64,000 nucleotides of DNA, from positions 1,926,501 through 1,990,500 of the forward strand of contig JAQISU010000119.1 in the NCBI GenBank assembly GCA_029339505.1. Direction: 5' to 3'. A program made the translations under genes and the position numbers. The notes under the pieces are model-generated. The model saw only the letters and a list, made by a program, of their open reading frames with translations. It searched no databases and was not told the origin of the DNA. Positions 6,958 to 63,136 of the stretch are shown in pieces. Every line of letters begins with the position of its first letter. Position 1 is the first letter of the stretch. The DNA is from Unio delphinus. Lineage: Eukaryota; Mollusca; Bivalvia; Unionida; Unionidae.

Positions 6958-6962
6958 ACATA
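6958..6962. repeat. Target-site duplication of element A, left copy
   Basis: ACATA directly abuts the terminal AGCAGCAG. The same five bases follow the right TIR at 23263-23267. Extending to six bases breaks the identity (AACATA versus ACATAG), so the duplication is 5 bp. Confidence 0.9.
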
Positions 6963-7203
6963 AGCAGCAGAGAGTGTGAACAGACCACACTTTTCCGACA
7001 AAATTTCGATTGAATCTTTAAAACGAAAATAGAGCCTTCCTACGAAATCTCATATTTTAACCCAAAAAAATAAGTCTCCATTTAGCAAACGGAGACTTTA
7101 CGATTTTTCAATCAACTTTGGTCGGAACGATGTGGTCATTCACACTCTCTGCTGCTACAAGTTAACAAAAATAATAAATGATTTCAACCAAATATTTGAT
7201 CAA
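6963..7203 (+). repeat. Element A left terminal inverted repeat
   Basis: About 241 bp, matching the reverse complement of 23021-23262 with only a few differences. The first 194 bp (6963-7156) are themselves bounded by inverted copies of the terminal motif: the outer arm at 6963-6990 pairs with the inner arm at 7129-7156. There is also a smaller internal hairpin, 'aagtctcc' with 'ggagactt' (about 7072-7096). The TIR runs on past the inner arm into the 3' codons of the ATPase gene, whose stop lies at about 7184. Confidence 0.9.
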
Positions 7204-7844
7204 GACCGATGCGATATCGTGTCCGAGGATCATGTAAATTTATTGTTATAAATCCGTGCGGGGTCGACTGAGCGTTACTAAAGAAATTTTTAAATTGATT
7301 GAAGTCCATATCGGAACACCATGTCTGCCAAATATTTCGTAGCGTATGTGTATCAACGCCGTTAAACACAGCAAGAATATTACAGTTATCTCTGATCACT
7401 TTTGGAATCTGAGTGTAGCGTTGAGTGACATATATCACGTCAGTGTTTTTGTGCCTGCCTCGGGAAAATATTCTAGCTGGGTTTTTTTGATTGTCTAACA
7501 TCACATCGTCGTATACGACTAAATTGTTAATGTTCCCATCAAGATCATCCACGGATGGTGCCTCGTCAATATCAGTTATAAAATCAACTACGTTCTCACC
7601 TTTAATCTCTGAAGCGTTTTCATTAAAATCTTTTAGCACTTCATAGCATCGTTGATCATCAACGCTAGGAGCAACTAAATACAACTTATCCCACTTCATT
7701 CATCTCATTATTAAACTGAGCAACAATTGTGTCTTGCCGGATCCAGATGGCCCGATTATAATTGCGCGGATAGAGGTTGGTAGCGCTGCATGATGCTTAA
7801 CTGGTTCTCTTGTTTTAGTCGCTGAAAAAATCAATTATATCCAT
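7184..7844 (-). pseudogene. FtsK/HerA-type DNA packaging ATPase, broken (element A)
   Basis: This gene would pump element DNA into preformed capsids, like the genome-packaging ATPases of Polintons. The intact counterpart in element C is 223 aa. Here the P-loop half is separated from the rest by two lesions. One extra T near the start (about 7825-7831) shifts the frame, and a Trp codon (TGG in C) is TGA at about 7700. The open C-terminal 171 aa keep the Walker B stretch (LVVYDD) and the conserved VTQRYTQIPKVIRDN sensor region. The gene faces away from the zinc ribbon gene, with its start codon 18-20 bp from that gene's start. Its last codons lie inside the TIR. Confidence 0.88.
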
Positions 7845-7861
7845 ATCTCTATACATAAATT

Positions 7862-8140
7862 ATGGATCTATATTGCGTGAAGTATAAAACGCGTACTAGC
7901 ACAAATGATGTGACGAAGATTACAACTAAAAATAACAGATCAGCACTTACTGGTAGATGTGCAACATGTGGTAAAAAAAAAGTTAGATTTATTTCTATGA
8001 AATCCGGAGATGTTTTAAAAAAAAACGAGGAGGTGATATCGCAGCCAAATTGGCAAAGCTCCCTGGAACCCCATGGGCAAAGTGCTTCGGAGAAAAGCAC
8101 CATCCAGGATATAGCTACTGTGGTCCCGGAACACGATTAG
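7862..8140 (+). CDS. DUF5679-type zinc ribbon protein (element A)
   Basis: A small protein opening MDLYCVKYKTRT, with a second pair CATC near residue 36. The family pattern is a CxxC pair, a basic beta hairpin (TTKNNRSALTG) and a second CxxC. In this copy the second Cys of the first pair is Tyr (CVKY), so zinc binding may be damaged. The frame continues through the slippery tract at 8020-8026 and runs out at 8140 in out-of-frame phospholipase sequence. In element C the same frame stops soon after the slippery site, so the biological product is probably the first 55 or so residues, or a -1 frameshift fusion with the phospholipase. Confidence 0.75.
   Translation: MDLYCVKYKTRTSTNDVTKITTKNNRSALTGRCATCGKKKVRFISMKSGDVLKKNEEVISQPNWQSSLEPHGQSASEKSTIQDIATVVPEHD
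8020..8026 (+). promoter_or_regulatory. Candidate -1 ribosomal frameshift site (A AAA AAC)
   Basis: A run of nine A ends in C, phased in the zinc ribbon frame as TTA AAA AAA AAC. The last seven bases fit the X XXY YYZ slippery rule exactly. A -1 slip moves ribosomes into the phospholipase frame, which is open from here to the stop at 8385. The same heptamer in the same phase occurs in element C at 49319-49325. The site is inferred from sequence; mutational indels in an A-run are the alternative. Confidence 0.55.
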
Positions 8141-8385
8141 ATATCAGGCTTGATGATCAAAATCAACCCCGATCCGGCGAGTATCAGATAAACGCTATTG
8201 ATAAGGCGTGTCATGCTCATGATGTTGCATATAAAAGCAGCAATCTGCAAAACAGGCATCTCGCGGATGTGAAATTAATTCATGCGTTAAATGCTATTCC
8301 TGATAAATCTTTGAAAGAAAAATTGGCTTCGTGGTTGGTAAAATCGGCTATGAAAGGCAAATTGATGTTAGGTGCTGGTAATTAA
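8026..8385 (+). CDS. Virion-type phospholipase A2 (element A)
   Basis: The frame lacks an upstream ATG of its own; the first internal ATG is at 8050. It encodes a secreted/virion PLA2 fold: the calcium loop YCGPGTRLD and the catalytic His-Asp helix HAHDVAYK, followed by a basic C-terminal helix region. This class of PLA2 is known from parvovirus capsids and some adinto/Polinton-like viruses, where it helps particles cross endosomal membranes. That role here is inferred from family. The frame is -1 relative to the zinc ribbon gene, so expression probably needs frameshifting or internal initiation. The stop lies 4 bp before the integrase ATG. Confidence 0.8.
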   Translation, partial: RGGDIAAKLAKLPGTPWAKCFGEKHHPGYSYCGPGTRLDIRLDDQNQPRSGEYQINAIDKACHAHDVAYKSSNLQNRHLADVKLIHALNAIPDKSLKEKLASWLVKSAMKGKLMLGAGN

Positions 8386-8389
8386 TAAC

Positions 8390-9347
8390 ATGGAATCTAT
8401 TTATTATTCTCCGAGAGGATACTGTAAGGGTAAAGCAGCAATCAGTAAACTCGCCAGCGCCGCAAAATTGAAAAAGGCTACTGCGGCTAATTGATTATCC
8501 AAACAGGCTATATGGAAAATTTATCTACCGCGTCCTAAACAAATCAATTTCTCGCATTTTGATGTTACTGTACCCAATGAGGTTCATCAAGCTGATTTAT
8601 TGTTTTTACCACATGACAACGGTTACAAATACGCGCTAACCGTAGTTGATGTTGCGAGTCGATACAAACAAGCAGAACCGCTAAAAACAAAATCATCACC
8701 TGAAGTTGCTTCTGCATTTGAAAAGATTTATCGACGAGGCCCTCTACGCTGGCCAAATCTGTTACAAGTTGATCCTGGCAAGGAATTTCAAGGCGCTGTT
8801 TTATCAGCGATGAAACATCACAATGTCACCATCAGACGAGGGCATACTGCGCTACATCGCGATCAGGCAATTGTTGAACGATTGAATCGGACTCTTGCAA
8901 ACGGTTATTTGGATATCAATACGCGAAGGAATTTATTCAGGATAAAAGATCCCGTGAATGGATCAAGAGATTACCAGCTGTGATTACCGCGCTCAATAAC
9001 GAGATTACTCGAACAATTAACATGAAACCTGTCAACGCGATTAAGAAAGCGTCTATACCAAAAATGGAAATCCAAGGAATTTCACAAAAAGATTTCAAAG
9101 AACCAATTCTTGGTAGTAATGTCACTGTTCGGTATTTATACGAACCAGGAGAGCTTGAGGGTGGTAAAAAAGAGCTACCGATCCAATTTGGAGCCTCACT
9201 ACGCATACCATATCCGGTATAACACGATCTACTGGTAGACCTCCAATCTATAAACTGGATTCAACTGCTCCTCAGCGAGGATTTACTCGACAACAACTAC
9301 AGGTAATTCCCGAGGATACTCAATTACCACCGCGTGGTCATAACTAG
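8390..9347 (+). pseudogene. DDE integrase (retroviral type), broken (element A)
   Basis: The retroviral-type integrase core inserts the linear element DNA and would generate the 5-bp target duplication. Catalytic residues are visible in VVDVASRYK, VDPGKEF and VERLNRTL (D, D, E with 34 residues between the last two). Lesions: a TGG (Trp in B and C) is TGA at about 8493, and one base is lost at about 8900, shifting the frame after the catalytic Glu. Further indels occur near 9190. The C-terminal region keeps the VRYLYEPGELEGG stretch. The stop at 9345-9347 meets the oppositely transcribed HNH end of the polymerase gene. Confidence 0.88.
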
Positions 9348-12300
9348 CACCCCTTTGTCTGTTGCACTCAAGACAAGTCAGCATAACGTTATCTCTGATA
9401 TGACCAATGCTGCTATTCTTTCTGTCTACGGTAAATTGGCGAGCATCTTTATCCGAATACTGCCAACGCATTATACAATTGCAACTCGCGCAGTGATTAT
9501 TCTGTTGTTGCTTCAGCGTAATTATTAATTCAGCATCAATGTCAAATTCTCGTTGTTTTTCTTTTTGTCTTGTTGTTTGTAACCGAAGAGTTTTTTATCA
9601 ATAATTTTAACATCAACGATGCTAGCATCATCCATTGTAGTGTCATTATCATCCAGGACAACTATTCGAAGTTGATTTATTATTCGTACTCTGGATACTG
9701 CAAGATAGACTAAATTCGACCATTCGATGTGATTATCCACCATCCAAACAATTGTATCTGATATAGTCAATCCCTGTGAAGAGTGTATTGTCGCTGCGTA
9801 ACCTAACGTCCATGGGGATTTATCAGCAAGCAATGCATCTTCGACGACGCTGATATCAACCAGCACAATATCATTTAACACGAGAATCTGCTTTTCACTC
9901 TTCCCTGGAATATCAACTTCAATATTCTGCTTTCGTGTATCCGAAGGCCTATAACACAACGGTACTGGAAGTGTTGCAAATTTTTCTTTATGCGTTTCAA
10001 ATAACTTCATCTGAAGTGTGTCTCTGACTATTTTTCTACTTGCTACTATCAAATCATTTGGTCTCCACGTTTCCCAAAAATCATTCATGGGAGTTTCTGA
10101 AATCATTTCACGCGCTATTTCACATTGGATTTTATCCGGTTGTAATCTAATTAGCGCTTTGAATTCTCGTAATTGTTCATCAAGTGATCTATAATCAGTG
10201 GTAATTTCTTCATAATAGTCTACAAAACCCTTTAGCCATTCATGTGGGGATGCACCGATAAATGGTGGTGGTTGGCCGTGATCACCGCACATGATGACTT
10301 TTGTATTTTTCAATAACAACCACTCGAGAAATGTTTGTAATACATCTAATGACACTGTGCATATTTCATCCCAAATTATGATTTCAGGAATGAATTTATC
10401 ACCCATTCGATCAGGGGTCCATTCATCGCCTTTCCATCGAAAGAAACTATAATAAGTACAGGCATTTACCCCTCGTTGTTTCATCTCTCTGGCGAGTCTG
10501 TGAGTTGGTGTTAACACAATCATGGTTGACCGACGAAATAATTCAATTGCACGAGTTGTCTTTCCTGACCCACCACAACCGTTTAAATAAACTGTCTTGT
10601 ATCTACATATTGGATCAGATACCGGTGGTTCATTAGAAAATTCGGATTGAATCTCATCACACTTTAAGTACTTTTCATCCATGGTAACATCTGCCGATTC
10701 ACAATACTCATGTAGCGTCTCCTTTTTAAATCTCCAACATCCCCAATTTGCATCCGGATCTGTGAATTTAGCTACATCTGATTTGCATTTCTCGTGGATA
10801 TACATAGAATCAGTGGCTACTCTAACTGCGGTATTAGGAAATCTATTTATCATCGAAAATAAATTGATAGAAGCATAAGCTAGCATAGAACTTCTCAAAT
10901 GCGTATATTGTTTAATATATCCATCACAATAGGTAACAATTGTACCTAATCGTCTTCCATCGGATAGGAAAGCGTCTTTACGATTTACAAGTTTTCCCTG
11001 TTTCGTTAAATCTGTTACAATAAAATCGTATTCAGCGATGTCTATGATCAACCGCGAAGAATATTTTGCATTGTCGTATCTTCCACCCTGGGTAAATTTA
11101 CCGATTATTCTTCGTCCAAAATCTTTTGCTTGTTCTTTTTTAATTTCAAATAACTTCTAAATCCAATTCATGATTTGTTTTTCATTGAAATCTGGAAACT
11201 GTTTTCGCTGTTCGCTAATTATACGATCTAGATCGGGTTGTGGTAGCCAAACTTCTTTCTGAGCTCGATAGCATATAATAGCTTCGGAAACAATCAACGA
11301 TATTAGCATACCACAATCAATCAGGCCTTTTCAGATATATGTCTACCAAGCCAAAGATAACTACACGGATGTAACCCTGTAGTGAGTTCAAATAATATCA
11401 CACGAGCGAATCCGGTTAAATCAAAATCAGGTAATGGCCCATTAATCGCAACACGAGTCATTTCATGTGTGGGGTGTCCAAATCGTTTAAAATAGTTACT
11501 ACATTCTCCATACCCGAGGAAACGTCCAGGATAACACGCGGATATATCAATTGAAATCATACCGCCACGATGGTATTTCGTATTCCACAGTCCTCCATGA
11601 CCAAATTCGACGCAACTCAATTTAACGTCCTCGAGAAAATCACTTCGTGTTGGACGCCATGAGTTTTTTTCTCTTGAGAAGTGAGCTACCACTGATGGAA
11701 TAGTAAAACTATCCGTTAATAGTTTTTCATGGGAACTCTCCGGTGAAAAATCACTAGCGATTTTTCTCATTCTGTTATCTAATTCTTCAACGCGATATAA
11801 TTCACCATTTGGTCTTACAAATTGATCAAATCCTATTTCGGGATCTGCATCACTTCTAAGTAACCACACTGACACTGGATCATCCTTACACAGCGTGTGA
11901 ATAGCATCGAATAATTTCTCATTATAAAAAACATCCCCGACGAACTCCTTAGGGATATATCTCAATGTTCTATCTCGTGGAAATATTGTTACTGCAGCCG
12001 TCCACGCGTGTTTGTTATGATCAATAATTTTAATTGGAGCCCCTCGCGATTGATATTTCGGTTCGTATAATACTTCTCCGGTTATTGTCGTTACTGATAT
12101 TGGGAATTTTAATAATGTTTCTAATTTAGCTATATCAGAAATCTTTGCACCGTGCTGTTTCACTGTCAGTTCCCATTCGGTTATTTTCCTACGTCGCAGA
12201 TCAGTTAGTTTATTTCCTCGGGATGCATTTGTGAAGTGTTCCATTACCCGTGTTGCTACACAATTCAGTTAACTAGAATATTTCATAGGAGCTAGTTTTG

Positions 12301-13021
12301 CAATATCGGGTTTATTATTTAACGGGTATATCCCATAAACAATTGCTGTTACAGGATAAGATCTCTCGTAGTATGGTTTGTCAATTCCAGTTAGAATTCC
12401 TGGTTTGGAATCTCTACTCACAATGACAGTTTTTTTATCCTTGAGGATTGGTTCAAATTTATCCTTAATAATCCATTTGCCTTCGACTTCGATAATGAAT
12501 TTTATTCTGAAAAAATACTTCTGTTGGGAATTGCTTTGCAATTTACCCTTGAATTTCCAGCCCCTTGGCGGGCCAAGGTGTGGAATTATCTCAGCTGCTT
12601 TTTCATCGTTCATAGTAACATCGATGTTGGGTACATTGACATCTTCATGAATAATTCGAAATGTCGACCAACAGTATGCTGAACCGTCTCGGTAGAATTC
12701 ATTAAAACACTCCCTGATTTTACCCAGTATAGTTCTATCACCGATTAGACGTTTTGGTGTATCAGAGACTCTATCGAGATTGAATTTATTATTTTTCCAA
12801 GGCTTAATTTTCGATAATCTTTGGAACTCCTTATCAAGATTGAATTTAGTATTTTTCCAGGGCTTAATTTTCGATAATCTTTGGAACTCCTTATCAAGAT
12901 TGAATTTAGTATTTTTCCAGGGCTTAATTTTCGATAATCTTTGGAATTCTTTCATGGTATAATCAATGAATTTAGTATTTTTCCAAGGCTTAATTTTCGA
13001 TAATCTCTTGAACTCCTCCAT
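9283..13021 (-). pseudogene. PolB-SF1 helicase-HNH replication protein, broken (element A)
   Basis: This is the replicase gene of the element on the reverse strand, split into several frames. The start is MEEFKRL at 13021, followed by four 20-residue repeats, then the polymerase. Palm motif A (DISACYPG) is near 11540, motif B-like IIGKFTQGG near 11090 and motif C ATDS near 10820. The SF1 helicase follows with GCGGSGKTT (about 10560), WDEI (about 10365), GDHGQPPPF (about 10265) and ATIHSSQG (about 9785). A C-terminal HNH with CxxC pairs is near 9350-9490. Lesions: TAA at about 12265, a small deletion at about 11320, TAG at about 11158, an indel in a Lys/Asn run at about 9560, and loss of the final stop so the frame reads on to 9283. 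Confidence 0.88.
12779..13018 (-). repeat. Four 60-bp repeats coding for a 20-residue module
   Basis: Exact 60-bp periodicity at 12781, 12841, 12901 and (shifted by 6 bp) 12967. The coded unit is KEFQRLSKIKPWKNTKFNLD. It forms the N-terminal leader of the polymerase frame. Element C has a different, longer version of the unit (54043-54468) and element B only one copy. Confidence 0.9.
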
Positions 13022-13063
13022 GTCATAATTGAAACAAGTATTTAAATATAAAAATATAGTATA
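13022..13063. promoter_or_regulatory. Bidirectional promoter between polymerase and Cys-rich genes (A)
   Basis: Only 42 bp separate the two divergent start codons. The 16-mer AAACAAGTATTTAAAT (13032-13047) is conserved at the same place in B (37144-37159) and C (54479-54494, one substitution). ATTTAAAT could serve as a TATA-like core for both directions. Function is inferred. Confidence 0.5.
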
Positions 13064-13378
13064 ATGAATCACTGCAAGTGGCTAATGATTGGATCAACAA
13101 CCCCGTGTAACAAATCAGGCAGAAGCGAATTCTGTGGGTATCATTTACAAAGCGTTCGCAACGGTTCTTTCGGTCCTCTTCCATGCCTCCAATGTGGGGT
13201 GGGCGTTAAAGGAAAATCACAATTATGTCTCAGTTGCGGCGGCAAACGATACAGGGAACTAAAACGCTATTATGACAAACGAATAAAAAATACCGTCATT
13301 GACCCTAACGATGACATAATCATAAAAAACCCTCAAGATTATATCAAGAGGTTTCTAATTAAAGCAGATATAAATTAG
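13064..13378 (+). CDS. Cys-rich zinc-binding small protein (element A)
   Basis: 104 aa, starting MNHCKWLMIG. Cysteines occur in three clusters: C..C..CxxxH in the first 27 residues, then CLQC, then CLSC before GGKRYRELKRYYDKR. The pattern suggests two small zinc-binding modules followed by a basic helix, fitting a nucleic-acid-binding or regulatory protein. No family could be named. Orthologues sit at the same place in B (decayed) and C (125 aa). Confidence 0.75.
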   Translation: MNHCKWLMIGSTTPCNKSGRSEFCGYHLQSVRNGSFGPLPCLQCGVGVKGKSQLCLSCGGKRYRELKRYYDKRIKNTVIDPNDDIIIKNPQDYIKRFLIKADIN

Positions 13379-13399
13379 ACAAATAGTATTATTATACAA

Positions 13400-13873
13400 A
13401 TGAGCCAAGATTTCAGACCCCATCCAGTGCTTGTTAATTACGAAGCCTCCAGTGATGGTGTTGTCAGGCACCGCAGACTAAAAAACCGGTTGGATTTTTG
13501 AATAATATGGTGTATTTGCTGTTTAGTGCTAGAAATAAAAAATATCTCTGTCATAGAATTATTTTTGAATGTCATAGCGGATTGATTAAAGACGACCTTG
13601 TTATTGATCACATAAATGGCGTGAAGACTGATAATTGTCTTGTGAATCTTCAAGCCGTCTCACAAAGTTGGAATTCAAAATCAGGTGGAACTGGCAAACA
13701 CGCAAAACGCCCTAGGGGGGGTCAAATCGTTTGATTTAGAAACCAAAGAGGAGAAAATATTTAAATCAATAAATGAAGCCAGTAGATACTTTGACATTTG
13801 TGGGACTTCAATACGATTTGTTGCAGAAAATACAATTAAAACAGCTCTGTCTAAAAAAATGGTCATAAAATAA
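13400..13873 (+). pseudogene. NUMOD4/HNH/NUMOD1 endonuclease-like gene, frameshifted (element A)
   Basis: The product resembles group I-type HNH homing endonucleases. It has an N-terminal NUMOD4-like part (YEASSDGVVRHRRLKN), an HNH core (VIDHINGVKTDN.L.NLQAVS) and a C-terminal NUMOD1-like DNA-binding part (SINEASRYFDICGTS). A frameshift near 13497 ends the first frame early and a second near 13720 shifts again before the NUMOD1 part. It follows the Cys-rich gene by 21 bp on the same strand. Confidence 0.8.
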
Positions 13874-14735
13874 AATTCGTATACAAATGAAACGATTCAG
13901 GGGAGATAAATCCTTTATGGATAAATCCGCCACAACTCACACTCTACTCACTAAGTTCCCTTGTATTATGACGTCAAAGGAATTGTGCCGTCTGCTATTA
14001 CCTGTAGAGAGAGTAACCTTGACTAGTCGCGCGCACGTGACTGTAATGAAGTATAACATAGTTTCGTTCGAGTTGTATTTTTATCAACTTTAACAATTTC
14101 TAAAATCTTTTATTGTCGTTTGGCTAAAACTGCAATTTATACAGTTGTATTTATTTAGACCATCTATAATACACTTTTAGTACAGACGGTTCTTTATAAT
14201 CCAGCGTATTACCTATGTTCGCTCAGCCGGAACAGTGTTTTCCATTCATTGAAGTAGGTGGGCGTGGTTAAAATTCCTCTGTATACAGCTCTTTGTGATC
14301 TAATCGATAATGTATTTTGTCTAGAGAATTAGAACAGGCAAAACACGCTGTTTTATCTAACAACTATATTATTTTGTTTAGTGTTTTATTTAAATATTTT
14401 GTTTCATTTAAATGTTGTGAAACAGTATTAATAAGTAATTCAAGGAAATAAAATAACACACCCGTGAATCAACGCTGCTGTATTAGTCACCTTATATATG
14501 TTAGGATTCGTAATAAGCTTGGGGCTTTCGAAAGCAAATCGGCCAATCAAAACTAACCAACGCCATTAACACGGGCGTGTGGTTGTCTTTTGTCAATCAA
14601 GCAACCGGGTTAATTTAGTTTGGTTGCTTTTGATTGGTTGGATTGGCCGTAGAAAATCTGCCCCGTCATTTCATGTTTGTGCCGTCCCACATCATTACAT
14701 CACAAATTCCATCATCGTTTCATTGAATATATCCA
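13874..14735. other. A-specific insertion between NUMOD gene and next gene
   Basis: Elements A and C are colinear on both sides, but in C the two genes are only 44 bp apart, so this block was gained in A or lost elsewhere. It holds a TGACGTCA at 13969-13976. An imperfect inverted repeat spans about 14540-14652 (cggccaatcaaaa with ttttgattgg...ttggccg). No supported gene is seen. Confidence 0.55.
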
Positions 14736-15086
14736 TCCTTAATTAAGTTAATTAAGTAACCTCTGGGTCTCTCTGACGTCATAAGGCGCCAGCGGGGTTG
14801 CCAAATGGGGTTTTTATGTATGTGCTGTCCTTAATTAAGTTAATAAAGTAACCTCTGGGTCTCTCTGACGTCATAAGGCGCCAGCGGGATTGCCAAATGG
14901 GGTTTTTATGTATGTGCTGTTCTTAATTAAGTTAATAAAGTAACCTGTGGGTCTCTCTGACGTCATAAGGCGCCAGCGGGGTTGCCAAATGGGGTTTTCA
15001 TGTATGTGCTGTCCTTAATTAAGCTAATAAAGTAACCTCTGGGTATCTCTGACGTCACAAGGCGCCAGCGGGATTGCGAAATGAGT
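14736..15086. repeat. 92-bp tandem repeats with TGACGTCA sites
   Basis: Three full units (14736, 14828, 14920) and one partial unit (15012-15086). Each contains TTAATTAA, TGACGTCA and GGCGCC, all perfect palindromes. TGACGTCA falls at 14774, 14866, 14958 and 15050. TGACGTCA is the canonical CRE bound by CREB/ATF factors. The array lies just upstream of the gene at 15143, so an enhancer role is plausible but not shown. Confidence 0.85.
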
Positions 15087-15142
15087 GTTATTTTTTTAAT
15101 AATTAGAGGTAAAATGTATTATATTTATATTTTTATAAAAAT

Positions 15143-15475
15143 ATGGATATCAAAGATGTAAATGCTATAATTGCTGAAATTTCAATTTTAAAGAATCGAG
15201 GGATAATATTATCTAAAGATCTCGACTGTGACAGGATTGCCTCGGAATATGAAAACATTGAGTATCAGTCTAGTAAGGGTCGTTATGTTTTACCTAAGAT
15301 GTACAGACTCATGAAAGGAATTCAAAAGTCCATCTATGCTTGTTTGTACGGTAACGATATTGATGTATTTATAATTATATTTAGCTCCGTTGAAGCAATA
15401 CGTCAAAAGCTCGGCCAAGAGTATCAAAAACGAGCTGAAATTAGTTCTAAGGTTCGTGATATTAGAAAAATATAA
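15143..15475 (+). CDS. Conserved unknown protein, 110 aa (element A)
   Basis: Starts MDIKDVNAIIAEISILKN. It contains KYMLPK-like (here RYVLPKMYRLMKGIQKSI) and a C-terminal VEAIRQKLGQEYQ helix. Orthologues exist in C (55423-55773, intact) and B (38874 onward, broken). It is probably all-helical. No family recognised; conservation in three copies supports a real gene. Confidence 0.7.
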   Translation: MDIKDVNAIIAEISILKNRGIILSKDLDCDRIASEYENIEYQSSKGRYVLPKMYRLMKGIQKSIYACLYGNDIDVFIIIFSSVEAIRQKLGQEYQKRAEISSKVRDIRKI

Positions 15476-15499
15476 AACGAGGAAAAACCAGTATCTTAA

Positions 15500-15590
15500 C
15501 CACGTGAGTGTTACTATAAAAAATAGGCTTTCAGTAATTTTTCAGTAAAAAATCATTTTTTTTTTAGCGTTTTTTGTAACACTCACATGG
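15500..15590. other. Intergenic stem-loop (element A)
   Basis: 15500-15514 (ccacgtgagtgttac) is the inverted complement of 15576-15590 with one mismatch, across a 61-bp loop. Element C has a different stem at the equivalent place (55902-55953), so the structure recurs but the sequence does not. Confidence 0.65.
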
Positions 15591-15861
15591 GATTTTCTCC
15601 TGAAAGGATAATCAGCAGTTTGGGCCTGCTCATGCAGTTATGTGCATACTGGATGATCTGGTTGTGGTAGCAAGTAATCACTGCGACGCCTCCATTTTCA
15701 CGTAGTTGTTGTTGTTGCCGCGTCGTTAACAAAAATCGTTCATCGCCGTTCTCAGATATTACAATTCTGAAACACCCAGCGATGTTATTTCTGAAACACT
15801 CGCGGATAGCGTCGTACAGTTTAACCTTGTCGGAGATGGATACGTTAGCTTGATGGTACAT
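15583..15861 (-). CDS. A-only reverse-strand ORF, 92 aa, unknown
   Basis: Open reading frame starting MYHQANVSISDKVKLYDAIR and ending ENPM. It diverges from the forward gene at 15927, with 65 bp between starts. It contains IRECF and CFRIVISENG segments, loosely like the IRECFNEF...STFRI stretch near the polymerase N-terminus, so it may derive from a partial duplication; that resemblance is weak. C has no open frame here. It could be a real accessory gene or chance. Confidence 0.4.
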   Translation of the reverse strand: MYHQANVSISDKVKLYDAIRECFRNNIAGCFRIVISENGDERFLLTTRQQQQLRENGGVAVITCYHNQIIQYAHNCMSRPKLLIILSGENPM

Positions 15862-15926
15862 TATTTAATAACTCAGCTTTTAATTGTGATAGTTTCACAT
15901 TTAAAAACTCAGTTCACAAACGATAT

Positions 15927-16895: not shown

Positions 16896-16929
16896 TCACT
16901 AATTGAAAAACTACTAGTTTTATAACAAG

Positions 16930-17162
16930 ATGATTATACACTACAACCATGATAAACCGTAAGCGTCTACGTGGTGAACTCACGATTGCCTGTTTATAGA
17001 GCATATTACGGAGATGGTTTCGGCAATACCATTGCGGGGTTATTTACAAGAATGGCTCCAAAAGTGGCGCCGTTAACTAAACAATTATCAATGAAAGCCA
17101 TTGATATTATTCGTGATAAGGGATTCAGCGCTGTTGGAAATCTTGCCGAAAGAACTAAATAA
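16930..17162 (+). pseudogene. Small basic virion-like protein, truncated (element A)
   Basis: Starts MIIHYNHDKP, then hits a stop and frameshift. The conserved core VYRAYYGDGFGNTIAGLFTRMAPK and KQLSMKAIDIIRDKG follow. It ends at tandem stops (17160-17165), whereas C continues for another 60 or so residues. The glycine-rich amphipathic core suggests a minor capsid or DNA-condensing protein; this is inference. Confidence 0.7.
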
Positions 17163-17170
17163 TAATAACA

Positions 17171-18582
17171 ATGTTTAAACAAACAGCTGATCCCGCGCTT
17201 GATAGGGAAGCCAAAGTGGGCAAGGACAATTCCGTCCGCGATTATCAATACTATTTCTATCATGCTATACAACCCAACCTACGATCGCGAATTGAACTTC
17301 AAGTTCAAGATACCAGTAAATACTTTTTGCCATTTGAGCATTTATTGAAGTAGAAGGAGAACTCGTAACAAATGATGCTGCTCATAATGATCCACCATAT
17401 GCAGATGATCCACATATCCGAGTTGGTTTCGTCAACAATGGCATAATGGCGTTTTTTGAAAGTGCAAGATATCTCATTGGTGGAAAAGAAATTGAATCAA
17501 TAGACCGTGAAGTTGATGTTGCAACAACAATAATCGGGCTAGCAAGATACTCCGATGATTATACAAGGTCGGCTGGTCCATATATGATGTTTGCAAAGGA
17601 TATTAATAATCACGCTGATCACATTAATCATACTAGGGTAAAAGCAACACGAGATACCGCAGTTGATCCAGCACCAGCCGGATATACTAGACCAGCTGGT
17701 ACCTTTGATGTCGTAGACATTAATCGCAATTTCAATCTAGGGTTTGCAACACGAGTAGCGACGTTACAAGGACAACGCCGACGGTTTTCATGTGCGATTC
17801 CGTTGCATCATATTTTCGGATTCTGCAGAAATGTTAGAAAAGTTATTTATGGAGCTAAACACACAATCGCATTAGTACGAAAAGGCGATGACAATGATGC
17901 AATTTGGCGTACTGGTGCCGCTGATGGTAAAGTTGTTTTAACTAAATTGGTACTATGGATGCCAGTAATGACCCCATCAATTACCAGAGAAGAGCGACTA
18001 CTCTCATTTATGGACACAGGCGGAAAATCATTGCTAAGTTGGCTAACAACAACAACTGATTCCAAAGATGATAATGTCGCTGGTACATTTACATGGCATT
18101 TGGCATCAAAACAAGGGGTTTCAGCTCCACGCCACATATTTGTAGCTCTACAGAATAGGGATAGGTTAGGTTCCCAAGAACGCAGTCATATGATATTCGA
18201 TCAATTAGGAGTAAATGAGGTTTCGCTGAGAATAAACGGACAACAAGAACCATCTGAGGATATACAGCTTGATTACGACAACAACTATATAGCACGTGTG
18301 TATAATCAAATGTTGTCATTTATGGGTCGTGATCAAAACGTTGATACTGGTTTGCAAATATCACAACTTGATTTTAAAAACCTCTATCCGATTTATTACT
18401 TTTCGCTGGAACATCTTGATTTAACAAGACAATCCGTTGTTGACATTCATTTTCGGGCTCGTATAGATCCTGGTGGTGTTAATTATCGAGCAGTTGCTGT
18501 CATTCTCAGCGACAAATCAATGATACTTAAAGGTGTTGGTGGACGAATGAGAATCGTTGATGCACCAGTGGAAAATATGTAA
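17171..18582 (+). pseudogene. Major capsid protein (double jelly roll), frameshifted (element A)
   Basis: The Polinton/adintovirus-type hexon-like major capsid protein. Recognisable stretches are VRDYQYYFYHAIQPN, IPLHHIFGFCRNVRKVIYG, IWRTGAADGK and LYPIYYFSLEHLDLTRQS. One base is missing at about 17340 (compare the intact C copy), which separates the first 57 residues from the remaining open 378-residue frame starting at 17446. The next gene starts immediately after the stop or 60 bp later. Confidence 0.92.
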
Positions 18583-18642
18583 ATGAAACTTGAAGAGTTT
18601 CCAATTAGATCAATTGAAAGCATAAATGTGTTTTACAATAAA

Positions 18643-19179: not shown

Positions 19180-19577
19180 CGATAAAAAGCTTCAGAGGGT
19201 TTTTTATGAGAGATCAATTACCGAGAAAACCTAAACGCGTTGAAACCGGTATCATCAATCTTGAAAACAGTAACGGATCGGGAACTCACTAGGTTGCATA
19301 CGCGATCGATCCACGTGGGATTGTCTATTTCGATTCATATGGGTTAGCTCCGCCAAGCGAGTTTATGCGGTATAAAAATTCTTCGATGAAACTCAAAGAG
19401 TTTCCAATTTTTTATTCCACGCTGCCAACACAACAATTAAATGATCCACCGATATGCGGCCGTGAAGTATTAAATGTCCTCGCAGAGATTTCATCGTCAC
19501 AGAAACCACCTCATCTGGTTGTAAATAAATACACGAGTGGGAAATTACAAGGTATTTTTAGAGAATCAATAAGTTAA
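19142..19577 (+). pseudogene. Adenain-type maturation protease, broken (element A)
   Basis: A cysteine protease of the adenovirus-protease (Ulp1-like) fold that cleaves virion precursors. Conserved landmarks are GTH-VAYAIDPRG (catalytic His), YFDSYG (Asp) and DPPICGREVLN (Cys). The Trp codon after the catalytic His (TGG in C) is TAG at about 19290. Two further stops follow the N-terminal MSNFDLIDAAKN, and a frameshift lies near 19375. Confidence 0.85.
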
Positions 19578-19599
19578 AAATACTAGAGTCTTTACAATA

Positions 19600-21177: not shown

Positions 21178-21179
21178 CA

Positions 21180-23020: not shown

Positions 23021-23262
23021 TCGATCAAATGTTTGGTTGAAATCATTTATTATTTTTGTTAACTTGCAGCAGCAGAGAGTGTGAATGACCACATCGTTGA
23101 GACCAAAATTGATTGAAAAATCGTAAAGTCTCCGTTTGCTAAATGGAGACTTATTATTTTTTGGTTAAAATATGAGATTTCGTAGGAAGGCTCTATTTTC
23201 GTTTTAAAGATTCAATCAAAATTTTATCGGAAAAGTGTGATCTGTTCACACTCTCTGCTGCT
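23021..23262 (-). repeat. Element A right terminal inverted repeat
   Basis: Inverted partner of 6963-7203. Its self-complementary hairpin unit spans 23068-23262. It begins just downstream of the penton-like gene stop (23016) and carries a duplicated copy of the last few codons' worth of the ATPase 3' end. Confidence 0.9.
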
Positions 23263-48173: not shown

Positions 48174-48178
48174 CTATT
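48174..48178. repeat. Target-site duplication of element C, left copy
   Basis: CTATT abuts the terminal AGCAGCAG and is repeated at 63137-63141 after the right TIR. A sixth base does not match. Confidence 0.9.
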
Positions 48179-48518
48179 AGCAGCAGAAGGGGCGAATCAG
48201 ACAACATTTTTAGACAAGTTTTCACTGAAATCACGCTTAAAAACAATGAAACCAATGACATCAGGTCCAAAATGTGTGTGTGAATCTGATATCGTTTCAT
48301 GGATTAGGATCAAATCAAAAAAACAACATTTTCAATGAAATCAGGTCCAAAAAAAATCAATGAAATTAATGAAATCCTCCATCGATTTTTTGGGAAAAAG
48401 GGACTACAACGTCGTTGTCACTCACCCCCTCTGCTGCTAGAACTTTCAGTTCTGGTTAACAAAAATCATAAATGATTTCAACCGAATATTTGATCCAGTC
48501 CGATACGATATCGTGTTC
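48179..48518 (+). repeat. Element C left terminal inverted repeat
   Basis: 340 bp, matching the reverse complement of 62797-63136. Its outer 260 bp (48179-48438) begin and end with inverted copies of the terminal motif (arms 48179-48206 and 48411-48438). The interior is unrelated to that of element A. The innermost 41 bp lie within the ATPase gene. Confidence 0.93.
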
Positions 48519-49149
48519 GAGGGTCATGTAAATTTATTGTTACAAATCCGTGTGGGGCAGACTGAACATGACTAAAGAAATTTCTAAATTGATTGAAGTC
48601 CATATCAGAACACCATGTCTGCCAAATATTTCGTAGCGTATGTGTATCAACGCCGTTGAATACAGCAAGCATATTACAGTTATCTCTAATCACTTTTGGA
48701 ATCTGAGTGTAGCGTTGAGTGACATAAATCACGTCCGTGTTTTTGTGCCTGCCTCGGGAAAATATTCTAGCTGGGTTTTTTTGTTTATCTAACATGACAT
48801 CATCGTATACAACTAAATTGTTGATACTTCCATCGAGGTCATTCACGGATGGTGCCTCGTCAATATCGGTTATAAATTCAATAACATCCTCGCCGGCAAT
48901 CTCTGAAGCGTTTTCATTAAAATCTTTTAGCACTTCATAGCATCGTTGATCATCTACGCTAGGGGCAATTAAATACAACTTATCCCACTTCATCCATCTC
49001 ATTATTAAATTGAGCAACAATTGCGTCTTGCCGGATCCAGATGGCCCGATTATAATTGCGCGGATAGAGTTTGGTAGCGCTGCATGATGCTTCACTGGTT
49101 CTCTTGTTTTAGTCGCTGAAAAATCAATTATATTCATATCTCTATACAT
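48478..49149 (-). CDS. FtsK/HerA-type DNA packaging ATPase (element C)
   Basis: 223 aa, intact. Walker A is GPSGSGKT at residues 35-42, Walker B LVVYDD at about 112-117, and a sensor region VTQRYTQIPKVIRDN follows at about 143-157. This is the A32-like packaging ATPase of Polintons and relatives, expected to translocate DNA into the capsid. The start is ambiguous between 49149 (MYRDMNII) and 49137 (MNIIDF). Element A has a clear ATG only at the matching position of each, so both remain possible. Either lies within 5-17 bp of the divergent zinc ribbon ATG. The 3' end overlaps the TIR. Confidence 0.93.
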   Translation of the reverse strand: MYRDMNIIDFSATKTREPVKHHAALPNSIRAIIIGPSGSGKTQLLLNLIMRWMKWDKLYLIAPSVDDQRCYEVLKDFNENASEIAGEDVIEFITDIDEAPSVNDLDGSINNLVVYDDVMLDKQKNPARIFSRGRHKNTDVIYVTQRYTQIPKVIRDNCNMLAVFNGVDTHTLRNIWQTWCSDMDFNQFRNFFSHVQSAPHGFVTINLHDPRTRYRIGLDQIFG

Positions 49150-49691: not shown

Positions 49692-50637
49692 ATGGAATCT
49701 ATTTATTATTCCCCAAGAGGATACTGGAAGGGTAACGCTGCAATCAGTAAACTCGCTAGCGCCGCAAAAGTGAAAAAAAACCACTGCGGCTCATTGGTTA
49801 TCCAAACAGGCACTATGGCAAATTTATCTACCACCGCCTAAACAAATTCAATTCTCGCATTTTGATGTAACCGGACCCAATGAAGTTCATCAGGCTGATC
49901 TATTATTTCTGCCACATGATCGTGGTTACAAATATGCGTTAACTGTAGTTGATATTGCAAGTCGATACAAAGAAGCAGAACCGTTAAAAACAAAATCGGC
50001 CACTGAAGTCGCTTCTGCATTTGAAAGGATTTATCGAAGGAGTCCTCTGCACTGGCCAAATCTATTACAAGTTGATCCTGGCAAGGAATTTCAGGGTGCA
50101 GTGTTATCTACAATGAAATATCACAATGTCGCTATCAGACGAGGGCATACTGCACTGCATCGTGATCAGGCCATTGTAGAACGGTTTAATAAAACCCTTG
50201 CTGAGCGGTTATTTGGATATCAATATGCAAAAGAATTCATCCAAGAAAAAAGATCCCGTGAATGGGTTAAGAGATTACCAGGTGTAGTTACCGCACTGAA
50301 TAACGAGATTACTAGAACCATCAACATGAAACCTATCAACGCGATTAAAAAGAAGTCGATACCTGAAAAGCCACAAAAAGATTTCAAAGAACCAATTCTT
50401 GGTAGTAATGTCATTGTGAGGTACTTATACGAACCAGGAGAGCTTGAAGGGGATAGAAAAAGGGCTACTGATCCTATTTGGGGCGTCACTACGCATAAGA
50501 TATCTAGTATAACACGATCTACGGGTAGACCTCCAATCTATAAACTGGATTCAACTGCCCCTCAACGGGGTTTTACTAGACAACAATTACAAGTGATACC
50601 CGAGGATACTCAATTGCCACCCCATGGTCTTAACTAG
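49692..50637 (+). pseudogene. DDE integrase (retroviral type), one frameshift (element C)
   Basis: MESIYYSPRGYWKGN start. An extra A in a run at about 49771-49778 shifts the frame after about 28 codons; the rest is open to the stop. Catalytic Asp codons are at 49951 (VVDIASRY) and 50074 (VDPGKEF), and Glu at 50179 (VERFNKTL), spacing D-34-E. A C-terminal VRYLYEPGELEGD region follows. No chromodomain was recognised. The stop overlaps the convergent HNH end of the polymerase gene by 8 bp. Its action explains the 5-bp duplications. Confidence 0.88.
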
Positions 50638-53600
50638 CACCCTTGCGTCTATTACACTCAAGACAAGTCAACATCACATTATTTCTGACATGACCGAGAT
50701 TGTTATTTTTTCTGTCTACGGTGAATTGGCGAGGATCCTTATCCGAATACTGCCAACGCATTATACAATTGCAACTCGCGCAGTGATTATTCTGTTGTTT
50801 CTTCAAAGTGATTATTAATTCAGCATCAATATCAAATTCTCGTTGTTTTTTTTTGTCTTGTTGTTTGTAACCGGAGAGTTTTTTATCAATAATATCATTA
50901 TCGTCACCAATGATTTCATCATCGCCAATGATTTCATCATCGAAGACAATTCTTCGAAGCTGATTTATTTTTCGCACTCTGGATACTAAAAGATAGACTA
51001 AATTCGACCATTCTATGCGATTATCTACCATCCAAACATTTGTATCCGATATAGTCAATCCCTGTGAAGAATGTATCGTCGCTGCATAACCTAGCGTCCA
51101 TGGGGATTTATTAGCACGCAATGCATCTTCAACAACATTGATATCAACCAGCACAATATCATTTAATACGAGAATCTTCTTTTCACTCTGTCCTGGAATA
51201 TCAACTTCGATGTTCTGTTTTCGCGTATCCGATGGCCTATAACAAAGAGGCACTGGAAATGTTGCAAATTTTTGTTTATGCAATTCAAATAACTTCATCT
51301 GAAGTGTGTCCCTGACTATTTTTCTACTTGCAATGATCAAATCATTTGGTCTCCACATTTCCCAAAACTCATTCATGGGAGTTTCCGAAATTATTTCACG
51401 GGTTATTTCACACTGGATTCTATCCGGTTGTAATCTAATTAGTTTCTTCAATTCTTTTAATTCATTATCAAGTGATCTATGATCGGTATCAATTTCTTCA
51501 TAATAGTCTACAAAACCCTTTAGCCATTCATGGGTGATGCACCGACAAATGGTGGTGGTTGGCCGTGATCACCGCACATGACCATTTTTGTATTCTTCAA
51601 TAACAACCACTCAAGAAATATTTTTAAGACATCTTCGGACACTGTGTCTATTTCATCCCAAATCATGATTTCAGGAATAAATTTCTCTCCCATGCGCTCA
51701 GGAGTCCATTTATCTCCCTTCCATCGGAAAAAGCTGTGATAAGTGCAAGCATTTACCCCTCTCTGTATCATTTCTCTTGCAAGTCTATGAGTTGGTGTTA
51801 GCACAATCATGTTTGGATTGGAAACACGAAATAACTCAATTGCCCGGGTTGTTTTTCCTGACCCACCACAGCCGTTTAAATAAACTGTTTTATACAGGCA
51901 TATTGGATCAGAAATCGGTGGTGCACTAGAAAATTCTGAACACTGATTGCTTTCTAAGTAATTATTTTCAATGGTAACATCTGCTGATGGAATATAATCA
52001 TGAATCATTTCTTTCTTAATTCTCCATGATCCCCATTTCTCGTTGCCAGTAGCCTTAAAATCAGCCATTTTGCTATTTATGTAAAATGAGTCAGTAGCAA
52101 CTCTAACTGCGGTGGTAGGAAATCTATTGATCATTGAAAACAGATTGATAGAAGCATAACCAAGCATAGAAGCTCTCAAATGTGTGTACTGCGGATGGTA
52201 TCCATCATTGTAGGTAACAATTGTACCCAATTTGGTTCCATCGGACATAAATGCGTCCTTACGATTGACATATAGGCCCTTATTCGTTAAATCCGCCATT
52301 GCAAAATCGTATTCAGCGTTGTCTATAATCAATCGTGAAGAATATTTCGTATTATCATCTTTGCCACCTTGGGTAAATTTACCGATTATTCTTCGTCCAA
52401 GATTTTTTGCTTCATTGTTTCTGATTTCAAATAACTGTCTGGACCAATCCATGATTTGCTGTTCATTAAAATCAGGAAACAGTTTTCGCTCTTCGCTAAT
52501 TATTTTTTCTAGATCAGGTTGTGGTAACCAGACTGATTTCTGTGCTCGATAGGATATAATTGCTTCACTGACAATTAATGATTTTAACATCTTACAATCA
52601 AGCATATACCGTAATAACACTATTGGCATCCAGTGTTTTTCAGACATGTGTTTACCAATCCAAAGATAACTACACGGATGAAGTCCTTCAGCCATTTCAA
52701 ATGATACTACACAAGCGAATCCGGTTAAATCAAAATCAGGAAGTGGTCCATTAATAGCAACACGGGTCATTTCGTGTGTAGGGTGTCCAAATCGTTTGAA
52801 ATATTTCTCGCATTCTCCATACCCAAGAAAACTTCCTGGATAACATGCAATCATATCAACTGAAATAACGGTATCAGCGGTGTATTTTGTGTTCCATAAT
52901 CCGCCGTGGCTGTATTCAAGACAGGACAATTTGACCTCTGATAAAAACTCACTTCGTGTTGGTTTCCACGCGTTTTTCTTTCTAGCAAAATGTGCTGCAA
53001 TGGATGGTACTGTAAAACAGTTTGCTAATAATTGATCTTCGATTTCCCCCTCAGAAAACTCACTAGCTAGTTGTTTCATTTGATTCTGCAGCTCTTCAGT
53101 ACGGTATAATTCTCCGTTAGGCCTTACAAACTGATCAAATTTGCATTCTTCGTCTGAAGTAATATGAAATAGCCACGCTGACACAGGATCGTTTTTACTC
53201 AAATGGTAAATAGCATCAAATAATTTCTGCTCTGAAAAAAACTCTTCGGTTTGGGATAGATATTTTACGGTTCTATCCCGTGGGAATATTGTTACTGCAG
53301 ATGACCACGCGTGCGCGTTATGATCAATAATTTCAATGGGGGCTCCCTGTGATTTATATTTCGATTCGTATAATACTTCACCGGTGATTGTCCTTACCGA
53401 TATTGGAAATCTTAATGATTTTTCTAATTTAGTTATATCCTGAATTGTTGCTCCATGCTCTTTTACCGTGAACTCCCACTCGGTTATTTTTTTTCGTCTT
53501 AGATCAGATATATTATTTCCCCGGGACGCATTTGTGAAGTGTTCTATTATTCGTTCTGCTACACAATTGAGTCCTGTCGAATATTTCATGGGTGCTAGTT

Positions 53601-54039
53601 TTGAAATATCAGGTTTTTCATTGAGCGGATATATCCCGTAAACAACTTCTGTGACAGGATAAGACCTTTCGTAGTAGGGTTTATCAATTCCAGTCAAAAT
53701 TCCCGGTTTTGAATCCTGATTCACGGTGACAGTTTTTTTGCCCTTGAGAATGGGTTCAAATTTATCCTTAATAATCCATTTGTCATTCTCACGGATAATG
53801 AATTTGATTCGGAAAAAATGACTTTTTTCCCCAACACGTGAAATGATCACTGCTGCTTTTTCATAATTCATGGTAGCGTCAACAACACCATCAATTCGAA
53901 ATGTTGACCAACAATAAGATGCTCCATCACGCTTGAATTCATTAAAACAGTCTCTGATGGGTTTATCAAGAATTTTATTCTTGGGTGTATTAGAAACTAT
54001 ATCAAGATTGAATTGAGCATCCTTCCATGATGATCTCAT
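50630..54039 (-). pseudogene. PolB-SF1 helicase-HNH replication protein, one frameshift (element C)
   Basis: About 1,137 codons with a single base missing at about 51532. Polymerase: motif A VDMIACYPGSF (Asp395), a divergent motif B IIGKFTQGG (551-559) and motif C VATDSFYI (648-651), where the usual DTDS is ATDS. Helicase: GCGGSGKT (723-730), IMIWDEI (791-797) and GDHGQPPPF; after the lesion come GYAATIHSSQGLT and SNLVYLLVSRVR. C-terminal HNH: CASC, VDRKNNNLGH and CLEC. A separate 3'-5' exonuclease could not be recognised. It would replicate the linear genome, probably protein-primed as in other Polintons (inference). Confidence 0.9.
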
Positions 54040-57631: not shown

Positions 57632-59056
57632 ATGTTCGAAAGGTCACCTGATCCAGCATTTGATATAGACGCCCCAGTCCCCAAGAATGATTCTGTACGC
57701 GATTATCAATATTACGCCTATCATGCCATAGACTCAAATAGTCGAGCAAGAATTGATCTTCAAGTCCATGATACCAGTAGATACTTTTTACCCTGTGAAG
57801 CATTTATTGAAGTAGAAGGAGAGATTATACGAACAAATGATACAGAGTATCCAGCTGGTACTCATGTCGGTTTTGTCAATAATGGTATTATGGCGCTATT
57901 TGAGAGTGCTAAATATCTCATTGATGGAAAAGAAATTGAGTCCATAGATCGTGAAGTTGATGTGGCCACAACAATCATAGGGTTAGCGAGATATTCTGAT
58001 GATTATACCAGATCAGCGGGTCCATCTATGATGTTTGCAAAAGATGGTAAGAATACCGCTGGAGGAAATCAATTTATTATAAGACGACCAAATGATCGTG
58101 CTGCTCCTCCTGCTCCTGCTGGTATCGAGGATATGATTATAAACAACGATTCTAATTTCAATCTAGGAGCTGCAACACGAAACGCAATGTTGCAAGGAGC
58201 GCGTAAATCATTTTCATGCGCGATTCCACTGCATCACATATTTGGATTCTGTAGAAACGTCCGAAAAGTTATTTATGGAGCGAAGCATACAGTATCGCTT
58301 GTACGAAGGAGTGATGATAACGACGCAATTTGGAGGATTCCAGCAGACATTGCACATCCAGATGCTGATGCCGGTAAAGTCAATTTAACAAAAATATCAT
58401 TGTGGATGCCAGTGTTGACTCCAGCAATCACCGCAGAACAACGACTACTATCATTTATGGACCAAGGAGGAAAGTCGTTGTTGAGTTGGCTAACCGTGAG
58501 TACAGATGTGAAGCAATCAAACATCAACGGGTTATTCACTTGGAACCTAGCATCAAAACAAGGCGTTTCTGCGCCACGACATATATTTATTGCGTTACAG
58601 GATAACACACGAGTTGGCAATCAACAACGAAGTCATATGATATTTGATCAATTAGGTGTGAAAGACGTCTCACTGAGAATAAACGGCCAGCAGGAACCAT
58701 CTGAGGATATACAACTTAATTACACAGAAAATCATATTGCACGAGTTTATCATCGTCTGTTGTCATTTATGGCACGCGATCAAAATGTGGATACTGGTTT
58801 GCAAATATCACAATATGATTTTAAAAATCTGTATCCGATCTATTACTTCTCACTGGAACATCTCGATTTGATGAGACAGTCAGTTGTTGATATACACTTT
58901 AGAGCTAATGTGACTCGTCCTGATGGTGCTCCTGGTGGTCCTCCTGCTATTGCTGATTATAGAGCGGTTGCTGTCATTCTCAGTGATAAATCAATGCTAC
59001 TCGAAGGTGTTGGTGGAAGAATGAGAGTGGTAGATGCCCCAGTAGAAAATCTTTGA
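57632..59056 (+). CDS. Major capsid protein, double jelly roll (element C)
   Basis: 474 aa, intact. Conserved blocks: VRDYQYYAYHAIDSNSRARI, IEVEGEI, IPLHHIFGFCRNVRKVIYG, SLVRRSDDNDAIWRI, LYPIYYFSLEHLDLMRQS and AVAVILSDKSM. These are the hallmarks of the Polinton/adintovirus hexon-like capsid protein, which trimerises into pseudo-hexameric capsomers. Length is close to that usual for the group. It is the best-preserved gene of the element. Confidence 0.95.
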   Translation: MFERSPDPAFDIDAPVPKNDSVRDYQYYAYHAIDSNSRARIDLQVHDTSRYFLPCEAFIEVEGEIIRTNDTEYPAGTHVGFVNNGIMALFESAKYLIDGKEIESIDREVDVATTIIGLARYSDDYTRSAGPSMMFAKDGKNTAGGNQFIIRRPNDRAAPPAPAGIEDMIINNDSNFNLGAATRNAMLQGARKSFSCAIPLHHIFGFCRNVRKVIYGAKHTVSLVRRSDDNDAIWRIPADIAHPDADAGKVNLTKISLWMPVLTPAITAEQRLLSFMDQGGKSLLSWLTVSTDVKQSNINGLFTWNLASKQGVSAPRHIFIALQDNTRVGNQQRSHMIFDQLGVKDVSLRINGQQEPSEDIQLNYTENHIARVYHRLLSFMARDQNVDTGLQISQYDFKNLYPIYYFSLEHLDLMRQSVVDIHFRANVTRPDGAPGGPPAIADYRAVAVILSDKSMLLEGVGGRMRVVDAPVENL

Positions 59057-62796: not shown

Positions 62797-63136
62797 GAAC
62801 ACGATATCGTATCGGACTGGATCAAATATTCGGTTGAAATCATTTATGATTTTTGTTAACCAGAATTGAAAGTTCTAGCAGCAGAGGGGGTGAGTGACAA
62901 CGACGTTGTAGTCCCTTTTTCCCAAAAAATCGATGGAGGATTTCATTATATTCATTGATTTTTTTTGGACCTGATTTCATTGAAAATGTTGTTTTTTTGA
63001 TTTGATCCTAATCCATGAAACGATATCAGATTCACACACACATTTTGGACCTGATGTCATTGGTTTCATTGTTTTTAAGCGTGATTTCAGTGAAAACTTG
63101 TCTAAAAATGTTGTCTGATTCGCCCCCTCTGCTGCT
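62797..63136 (-). repeat. Element C right terminal inverted repeat
   Basis: Inverted partner of the left TIR, the same 340-bp length, hairpin unit 62877-63136. It starts 28 bp after the penton-like stop and carries a copy of the ATPase 3' codons. Confidence 0.93.

Follow-up and report, generated by a model that had tools for sequence, protein, structure and literature searches.

The window, a 64-kb stretch of the Unio delphinus genome, holds three related elements, A, B and C. Elements A and C are complete at both ends (Table 1), and the extent of homology to C, at 69-79% identity in aligned blocks, places element B at 32223-45482; comparison within the window found no terminal homology for B. 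A Pfam scan of 30 window proteins matched a packaging ATPase of the A32 type and a double jelly-roll capsid protein in both A and C, with scores over the Pfam cut-off. A match to a retroviral-type integrase (rve) was found in A and not in C, while an adenovirus-type protease was matched in C only, weakly (18.0 against a cut-off of 21.3). A separate HNH endonuclease gene (PF13392) lies in C at 54899-55255. Elements A and C are Polinton/Maverick-like integrated viruses.

Table 1 Features of elements A and C, in window coordinates
Feature	Position	Strand	Remarks
Element A	6963-23262		Complete at both ends
Element C	48179-63136		Complete at both ends
A target duplication, ACATA	6958..6962 (left copy); 23263-23267 (right copy)	.	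5 bp
A left terminal hairpin unit	6963..7156	+	194 bp; outer arm, branched interior, inner arm; ends AGCAGCAG...CTGCTGCT; z -12.4
A left outer arm	6963..6989	+	GAACAGACCACA type
A internal hairpin	7072..7098	+	AAGTCTCC...GGAGACTT; one of two in the unit
A left inner arm	7131..7156	-	GAATGACCACA type on minus strand
A conserved inner flank	7157..7207	+	Contains GTTAACAAAAATnATAAATGATTTC; overlaps 3' end of ATPase ORF
A packaging ATPase piece	7184..7699	-	PF04665, E 2.8e-5
A phospholipase A2-like domain protein	8050..8385	+	PF08398 (Phospholip_A2_4), E 1.4e-8
A rve (retroviral-type integrase) piece	8600..8983	+	E 8.5e-6; 26.4 bits, below Pfam cut-off of 32.6
A helicase piece of the polymerase-helicase gene	9525..11051	-	AAA_19, E 2.1e-10
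A PF21738 match	17446..18582	+	E 1.7e-16
A right terminal hairpin unit	23068..23262	-	195 bp
C target duplication, CTATT	48174..48178 (left copy); 63137-63141 (right copy)	.	5 bp
C left terminal unit	48179..48438	+	260 bp; good pairing in outer arm only
C linker	48439..48454	+	AGAACTTTCAGTTCTG; possible mini hairpin; conserved inner flank comes after it, to 48521
C packaging ATPase (Pox_A32)	48478..49149	-	PF04665, E 1e-11; outward-reading, toward hairpin unit
C downstream helicase/HNH piece	50630..51451	-	Separate ORF, searched apart; HNH E 0.037, below Pfam cut-off
C polymerase-helicase fusion ORF	51520..54039	-	839 aa; AAA_19, E 9.7e-10; palm-like motifs CYP, ATDS; stop inside helicase
C PF21738 match	57632..59056	+	E 8.6e-17
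C right terminal unit	62877..63136	-	260 bp

Both elements also carry a polymerase-helicase gene, in each broken into pieces. In protein P0001, where the polymerase palm is recognised from motifs only, CYP lies near residue 400 and ATDS near 650, followed by AAA_19 at 717-830, an order that puts an SF1 helicase C-terminal to the palm. Seven homologs of 979-1229 aa combine a helicase domain and palm-like motifs in one protein. Motif C lacks its first Asp (xTD; ATDS in P0001) in 11 of 13 aligned rows altogether, the exceptions being P0004, which reads AIDS, and P0016, which is truncated there. Judged by its domain order (palm-S1H) and by this motif C, the fusion is of the Tlr1-like type. Named relatives come from the freshwater mussels Sinanodonta woodiana and Potamilus streckersoni, the coral Desmophyllum pertusum and a Candidatus Thiodiazotropha MAG (a bacterial assembly). 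Conserved C159 and H240/H243 could be candidate vOTU residues; the structure model was poor (mean pLDDT 50), its fold comparison covered the helicase part, and it did not establish a terminal-protein or vOTU domain. Tandem repeats of ~90 bp at 53974-54468, immediately upstream of the C polymerase ORF, encode repeated peptides (FKRLLKINPRFNLDRPKKR) similar to the N-terminal start of homologous polymerases.

Both ends of each element carry a nested inverted terminus

The earlier note described terminal inverted repeats that start with AGCAGCAG and whose outer unit is closed by an inverted copy of that terminus, with unit lengths of 194-195 bp in A and 260 bp in C. We found this arrangement at both ends of A and C and measured units of 194, 195, 260 and 260 bp. 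The window contains 13 copies of AGCAGCAG where 0.66 are expected, and 0 of 100 shuffles contain as many; eight of these copies are the outer/inner pairs of the four terminal units (6963/7156, 23068/23262, 48179/48438 and 62877/63136). Because exact 5-bp target duplications flank both A and C, the outer copies are the integration ends. Such a duplication was exact in 30 of 34 end pairs (9 of 12, 19 of 20 and, in the window, 2 of 2); of the 20, three probably derive from a single insertion. The duplication measures 5 bp and not the 6 bp of the Polinton/Maverick type. An extra AGC at one end (L021) was considered as end slippage and rejected, as it fits a 5-bp duplication, AAAGC, against the partner end L022; we counted this pair as not exact despite that reading. 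The same extra AGC is present at L028, an end seen without its partner.

Left and right units of an element are kept alike in alignment. Every end of A and C has an ORF that is directed at the terminal unit and terminates 27-107 bp short of it; the right-end ORF of C has no clear Pfam family match.

Nested termini are common in the genome

We searched the Unio delphinus genome (2.505 Gb, 1246 contigs) with an arm pattern, which gave 119 matches, and with an inner-arm-plus-flank pattern, which gave 1309; the control gave 0 in each case. For the first pattern we examined 80 of the matches listed (without C237, C247 and the window's own), and for the second 80 of the 100 listed among the 1309. 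An outer and an inner copy, the former with mismatches allowed, were present in 159 of the 159 readable loci among these 160 (L060 was excluded for Ns and L012 was kept although its inner arm is partly deleted). The inner copies are thus not limited to the two elements of the window, a restriction that the earlier note had said would count against it, and the nested architecture is common to the related elements sampled in this genome. Since the inner-arm-plus-flank pattern fixes the inner octamer and the flank, ends that lost either cannot appear in its matches. Unit length ranges from 151 to 322 bp in the surveyed loci. Together with the four window units these loci make up 163 compared units, 152 of which have an exact terminal octamer in the outer arm.

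Two side observations came from this survey. Judging by the 1309 end matches, this one animal genome appears to hold many hundreds of Polinton-like insertions. The linker adjoining the inner arm occurs in two self-pairing forms, except in L136, L138-L140, L145, L146 and L148, where it has a mixed, non-pairing form, as if recombined.

The unit could in principle be a small non-autonomous element that inserted at the ends, since both unit ends equal the ends of the element and the interiors of A and C differ. However, the arm-based search, which is independent of the flank, returned no lone unit: 79 of its 80 loci have a flank score of at least 60/100, and the 80th, L065, retains a cut-down flank. 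We therefore regard a separate element as extremely improbable.

Unit interiors fall into two unrelated classes

Aligned with each other, the interiors of A and C score 18 against 17.0 (sd 2.7) for shuffles, which bears out the view that they are unrelated; that view needs correcting at the edges, since A and C align over their outermost ~52 bp and the A-C BLAST match (7126-12520 with 48408-53824) takes in the inner arm. Clustering of 143 of the 163 units, the last 20 loci being left out of clustering and folding, gave seven groups. Clusters 0, 1, 3 and 6 (127 of 143 units) share a common A-type sequence that includes the AAGTCTCC...GGAGACTT hairpin or one closely similar; this hairpin was present, in some with point changes, in the 15 A-pattern units compared. 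A fifth group (L130) weakly resembles the A-type, and two groups (15 units) are C-type, with an interior unrelated to the A-type. The proposal that interiors are replaced between lineages therefore holds for the two classes and not as a general habit: with the A-type common to 127 of 143 units replacement looks rare, and the remaining change is largely deletion, duplication and homopolymer growth. Examples are an outer arm that has lost 28 nt (L013, L014, L040), runs of C or A that vary in length between units, an arm module in tandem copies (L125) and, read by eye, ~118 bp that separate a new end from an older, shortened outer arm (L102-L107). The last six are probably one insertion duplicated locally, because three pairs share flanks.

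Terminal arms pair in predicted folds

Local alignment of arm to arm gave scores of 60 for the left and 39 for the right unit of A (the latter taken one base short), 33 for the right and 28 for the left unit of C; out of 1000 dinucleotide shuffles, 0, 0, 0 and 3, respectively, reached these scores. As single-stranded DNA, the left unit of A folds at -49.4 kcal/mol (z -12.4) into a long stem with two inner hairpins, while the left unit of C reaches -31.2 (z -2.2), with 5 of 200 shuffles equally stable. A second shuffle set gave z values of -10.7 and -7.7 for the left and right units of A and of -1.9 and -3.8 for those of C. Outer-arm pairing in C runs 14 bp to the first mismatch in the right unit and 9 in the left, or 21-22 pairs with the distal GACAAC block. 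From fold energies and arm pairs we conclude that A forms a long branched hairpin and that C is firmly paired in its outer arm only. The suggestion that each end is able to fold into a terminal hairpin is thus borne out by the predicted folds, weakly overall for the C units.

The same division holds across the genome sample. All 100 shuffles were beaten by 127 of 128 non-C-type units compared with 5 of 15 C-type units. Mean z was -9.1 in cluster 0 (n = 96), -8.3 in cluster 1 (n = 24) and -5.7, -4.4 and -6.6 in the other non-C clusters (n = 6, 1 and 1), against -2.8 in cluster 2 (n = 13; 5 of 13 beat all 100 shuffles) and -1.7 in cluster 4 (n = 2; 0 of 2), the two C-type clusters, whose predicted folds have no stable inner hairpins. 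Given these weak C-type folds, the trait shared by both classes is the terminal stem, as opposed to the long branched structure. The minimum-energy structure pairs all eight bases of the terminus in 134 of 143 units, similar to the paired last base of parvoviruses.

The units have a fixed polarity

The two arms are distinguishable. CGTTG or a near form marks the inner arm in 154 of 163 units, the other 9 being uninformative, and CGTTG is found in the outer arm of none (0/163). In the arm-pattern sample the outer form lies outside and the inner form inside in 78 of 79 readable units, the 79th being L012. The distal block is offset by 1-3 nt, starting later in the outer arm, in 145 of 163 units (13 unparsed, 3 equal, 2 reversed), so a one-sided bulge is kept. 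No flipped unit, in the sense of flip and flop orientations, was seen among the 163 integrated copies examined; unit orientation in these copies is fixed.

This polarity bears on how the ends might replicate. Parvovirus ends are self-complementary, with inner hairpins beside a unique region, and parvovirus hairpin replication yields both orientations of the terminal palindrome. In a parvovirus-like rolling hairpin, the 3' end would prime itself and a nickase would resolve the product, inverting the unit each round. The terminal palindrome with its inner hairpins resembles such an end, and A encodes a PLA2 domain (Pfam Phospholip_A2_4). However, hairpin transfer would invert the unit and mix the arm marks, whereas the mark is confined to inner arms. 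A Pfam search of the 30 window proteins returned no match to a Rep-type or NS1-type nickase, which is weak evidence in the same direction. We thus consider a rolling hairpin highly unlikely, and the hairpin step that the earlier note had hinted at is not supported in its hairpin-transfer version.

The two arms change together

Because the A-pattern search fixes one arm, we recounted joint change on the 80 loci without fixed stem sites. Of these, 72 could be parsed; L102-L107 (outer arm without distal block), L112 and L159 were dropped. (Rows left out elsewhere were 12 of 143 in the 143-unit pairing analysis and 7 of 78 in the arm-pattern sample.) In the distal block, the C/A site reads C,C (outer arm, inner arm) in 50 units and A,A in 22, with no mixed pair. 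Stem position 13 reads G,G in 63, T,T in 5 and otherwise in 4, and agreement is looser at position 11 (A,A in 54, G,G in 6, mixed in 12). Arms pair with their own partners at 13.57 of 16 positions compared with 12.56 (sd 0.17) for shuffled partners, with 0 of 5000 shuffles as good, although partner shuffling leaves relatedness among units in place. Without the C-type units the values are 13.91 and 12.99 (again 0 of 5000); C-type units alone show no excess of own-partner pairing, 3396 of 5000 shuffles being as good. On trees of the interiors the C/A switch requires three changes (one on supported branches) or, on a second tree, four (two supported), too few supported changes for a sign test to reach significance. 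The arms therefore tend to change together, with C/A agreement that is complete but rests on few independent events.

Joint change could also arise with no function at all, if the unit were an old inverted duplication of the end whose arms are kept alike by copying during replication or repair. The inner arm of L089/L090 reads GAGCCGGACAAC and matches its own outer arm, whereas L091, L096 and L100 keep GTGACAAC, a sign of arm-to-arm copying, and the likeness of left and right units agrees with such a process. Whole-arm copying should nevertheless erase differences between outer and inner arms, but almost every group retains both the inner mark and the bulge, and the outer distal block is absent in L102-L107. 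Taken together, this evidence makes the absence of a function decidedly unlikely.

A role in integration would make the inner copy a second integrase-binding site or an aid to pairing the ends, with no folded strand. Flanking 5-bp duplications and an octamer common to inner and outer copies agree with this; a shared binding site alone leaves the joint change of stem sites and the one-sided bulge unexplained, and we consider such a role unlikely. The paired arms might instead act in RNA, as a 3' hairpin for termination or 3' processing of the outward-reading transcripts. The direction of the ORFs at all four ends of A and C and their stops short of the unit would suit that role, and joint arm change is as compatible with RNA as with DNA. 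Against it, transcripts need not extend to the exact integration base, where the paired arm starts, the outer terminal octamer is nearly always exact, and the right-end ORF of C belongs to no clear family. We judge an RNA role quite unlikely.

A folded, protein-primed end is the favored reading

What we observe is a foldable unit at exact integration ends, arms that change jointly, a bulge in most units, a fixed orientation and an ORF for a Tlr1-like polymerase-helicase. Joint arm change without swapping of halves points to a folded end for starting or protecting DNA copying, and a replication role for the hairpin unit is the best reading of these data. Strand displacement, the other step hinted at in the earlier note, fits the encoded protein-primed type of polymerase. 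More specifically, we propose, with a confidence that is evenly balanced, that each Polinton-like element end is a folded, protein-primed origin and telomere working like Streptomyces telomeres. A protein-primed polymerase would copy from each end and displace a strand. The end of the displaced strand would then fold in the cell, its terminal AGCAGCAG arm pairing with the inner inverted arm and, in A-type units, smaller hairpins forming within the loop. This fold could rebuild a short duplex with the terminal base and offer it to the element's own polymerase-helicase fusion, and may also protect the end. Synthesis of a new strand would be protein-primed at the triplet repeat (AGC)2AG, possibly with stepping back on it. 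The completed linear duplex, hairpin unit included, would finally integrate with a 5-bp duplication. Adenovirus and phi29 step back at short end repeats in protein-primed synthesis, and the triplet repeat here is similar to the short repeats at the ends of protein-primed genomes.

Comparison with known systems

Tlr1-like Polinton-like viruses (PMC11071308) are close in gene content: they share a palm followed by an SF1 helicase, a motif C without its first Asp, an rve integrase, an A32 ATPase, a double jelly-roll capsid protein and terminal inverted repeats, and some have a C-terminal HNH, for which we have a weak match. The authors of that source predict that the Tlr1-like fusion is an active protein-primed polymerase. 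Unlike those viruses, the elements described here sit in an animal host genome and have a nested hairpin unit, which the part of that source consulted does not mention for the Tlr1-like group. Vertebrate Mavericks/Polintons resemble them in size, in several shared genes and in terminal inverted repeats with short repeats, (AG)3 or (AGT)2, at their start (PMC8097293), and differ from the present elements, which have a 5-bp and not a 6-bp duplication, a fusion polymerase and an inner inverted end copy. For Polinton-like viruses, a target duplication of 5-6 bp is given in PMC12220804.

Bidnaviruses have a linear genome, terminal repeats and a related, protein-primed PolB, whereas their ends are described as without hairpin-forming palindromes (PMC4938981, PMC4061559). 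Transpoviron terminal inverted repeats measure 380-520 nt, with no terminal hairpin mentioned in the available part of the source (PMC7031253). Within the accessible portions of the openly licensed PMC literature, we found no description of a nested hairpin terminus in Polinton-like elements (PMC11071296, PMC12721341, PMC10120064, PMC12220804, PMC3671162, PMC7031253, PMC6723459, PMC12747079). The inverted terminal repeats of parvoviruses share a self-complementary end, inner hairpins and an adjoining unique region with the units studied here, and a paper on Streptomyces telomeres compares such ends (PMC4513846); the differences lie in the absence of a flipped orientation among the integrated copies and in a polymerase of protein-primed type as opposed to a nickase-helicase.

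Streptomyces telomeres have a comparable structure. There, part of palindrome IV complements terminal palindrome I, with hairpins II and III separating the two, and the 5' end carries a terminal protein, end synthesis being protein-primed (PMC4513846); this precedent means that a terminal arm paired with an inner arm can serve protein-primed synthesis. The predicted folds of A-type units repeat that layout, a terminal arm paired with an inner arm and hairpins between. The Streptomyces structures differ in being bacterial chromosome ends that are patched after internal initiation, and Tap/Tpg are Streptomyces proteins. Many copies in one genome, with arms that co-change without flipping, turn what had been a guess into a testable model, which bears on the proposed replication links between Polintons, bidnaviruses and adenoviruses. 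A nested inverted terminus, a one-sided bulge and a fixed orientation are the signature to seek in other Polinton-like viruses. More tentatively, these elements may represent a large family of animal-integrated Polinton-like viruses whose protein-primed replication starts at a terminal hairpin, folded and fixed in polarity. Such an end would be the counterpart, in a eukaryotic virus, of the folded Streptomyces telomere and would stand between adenovirus-type and parvovirus-type ends.
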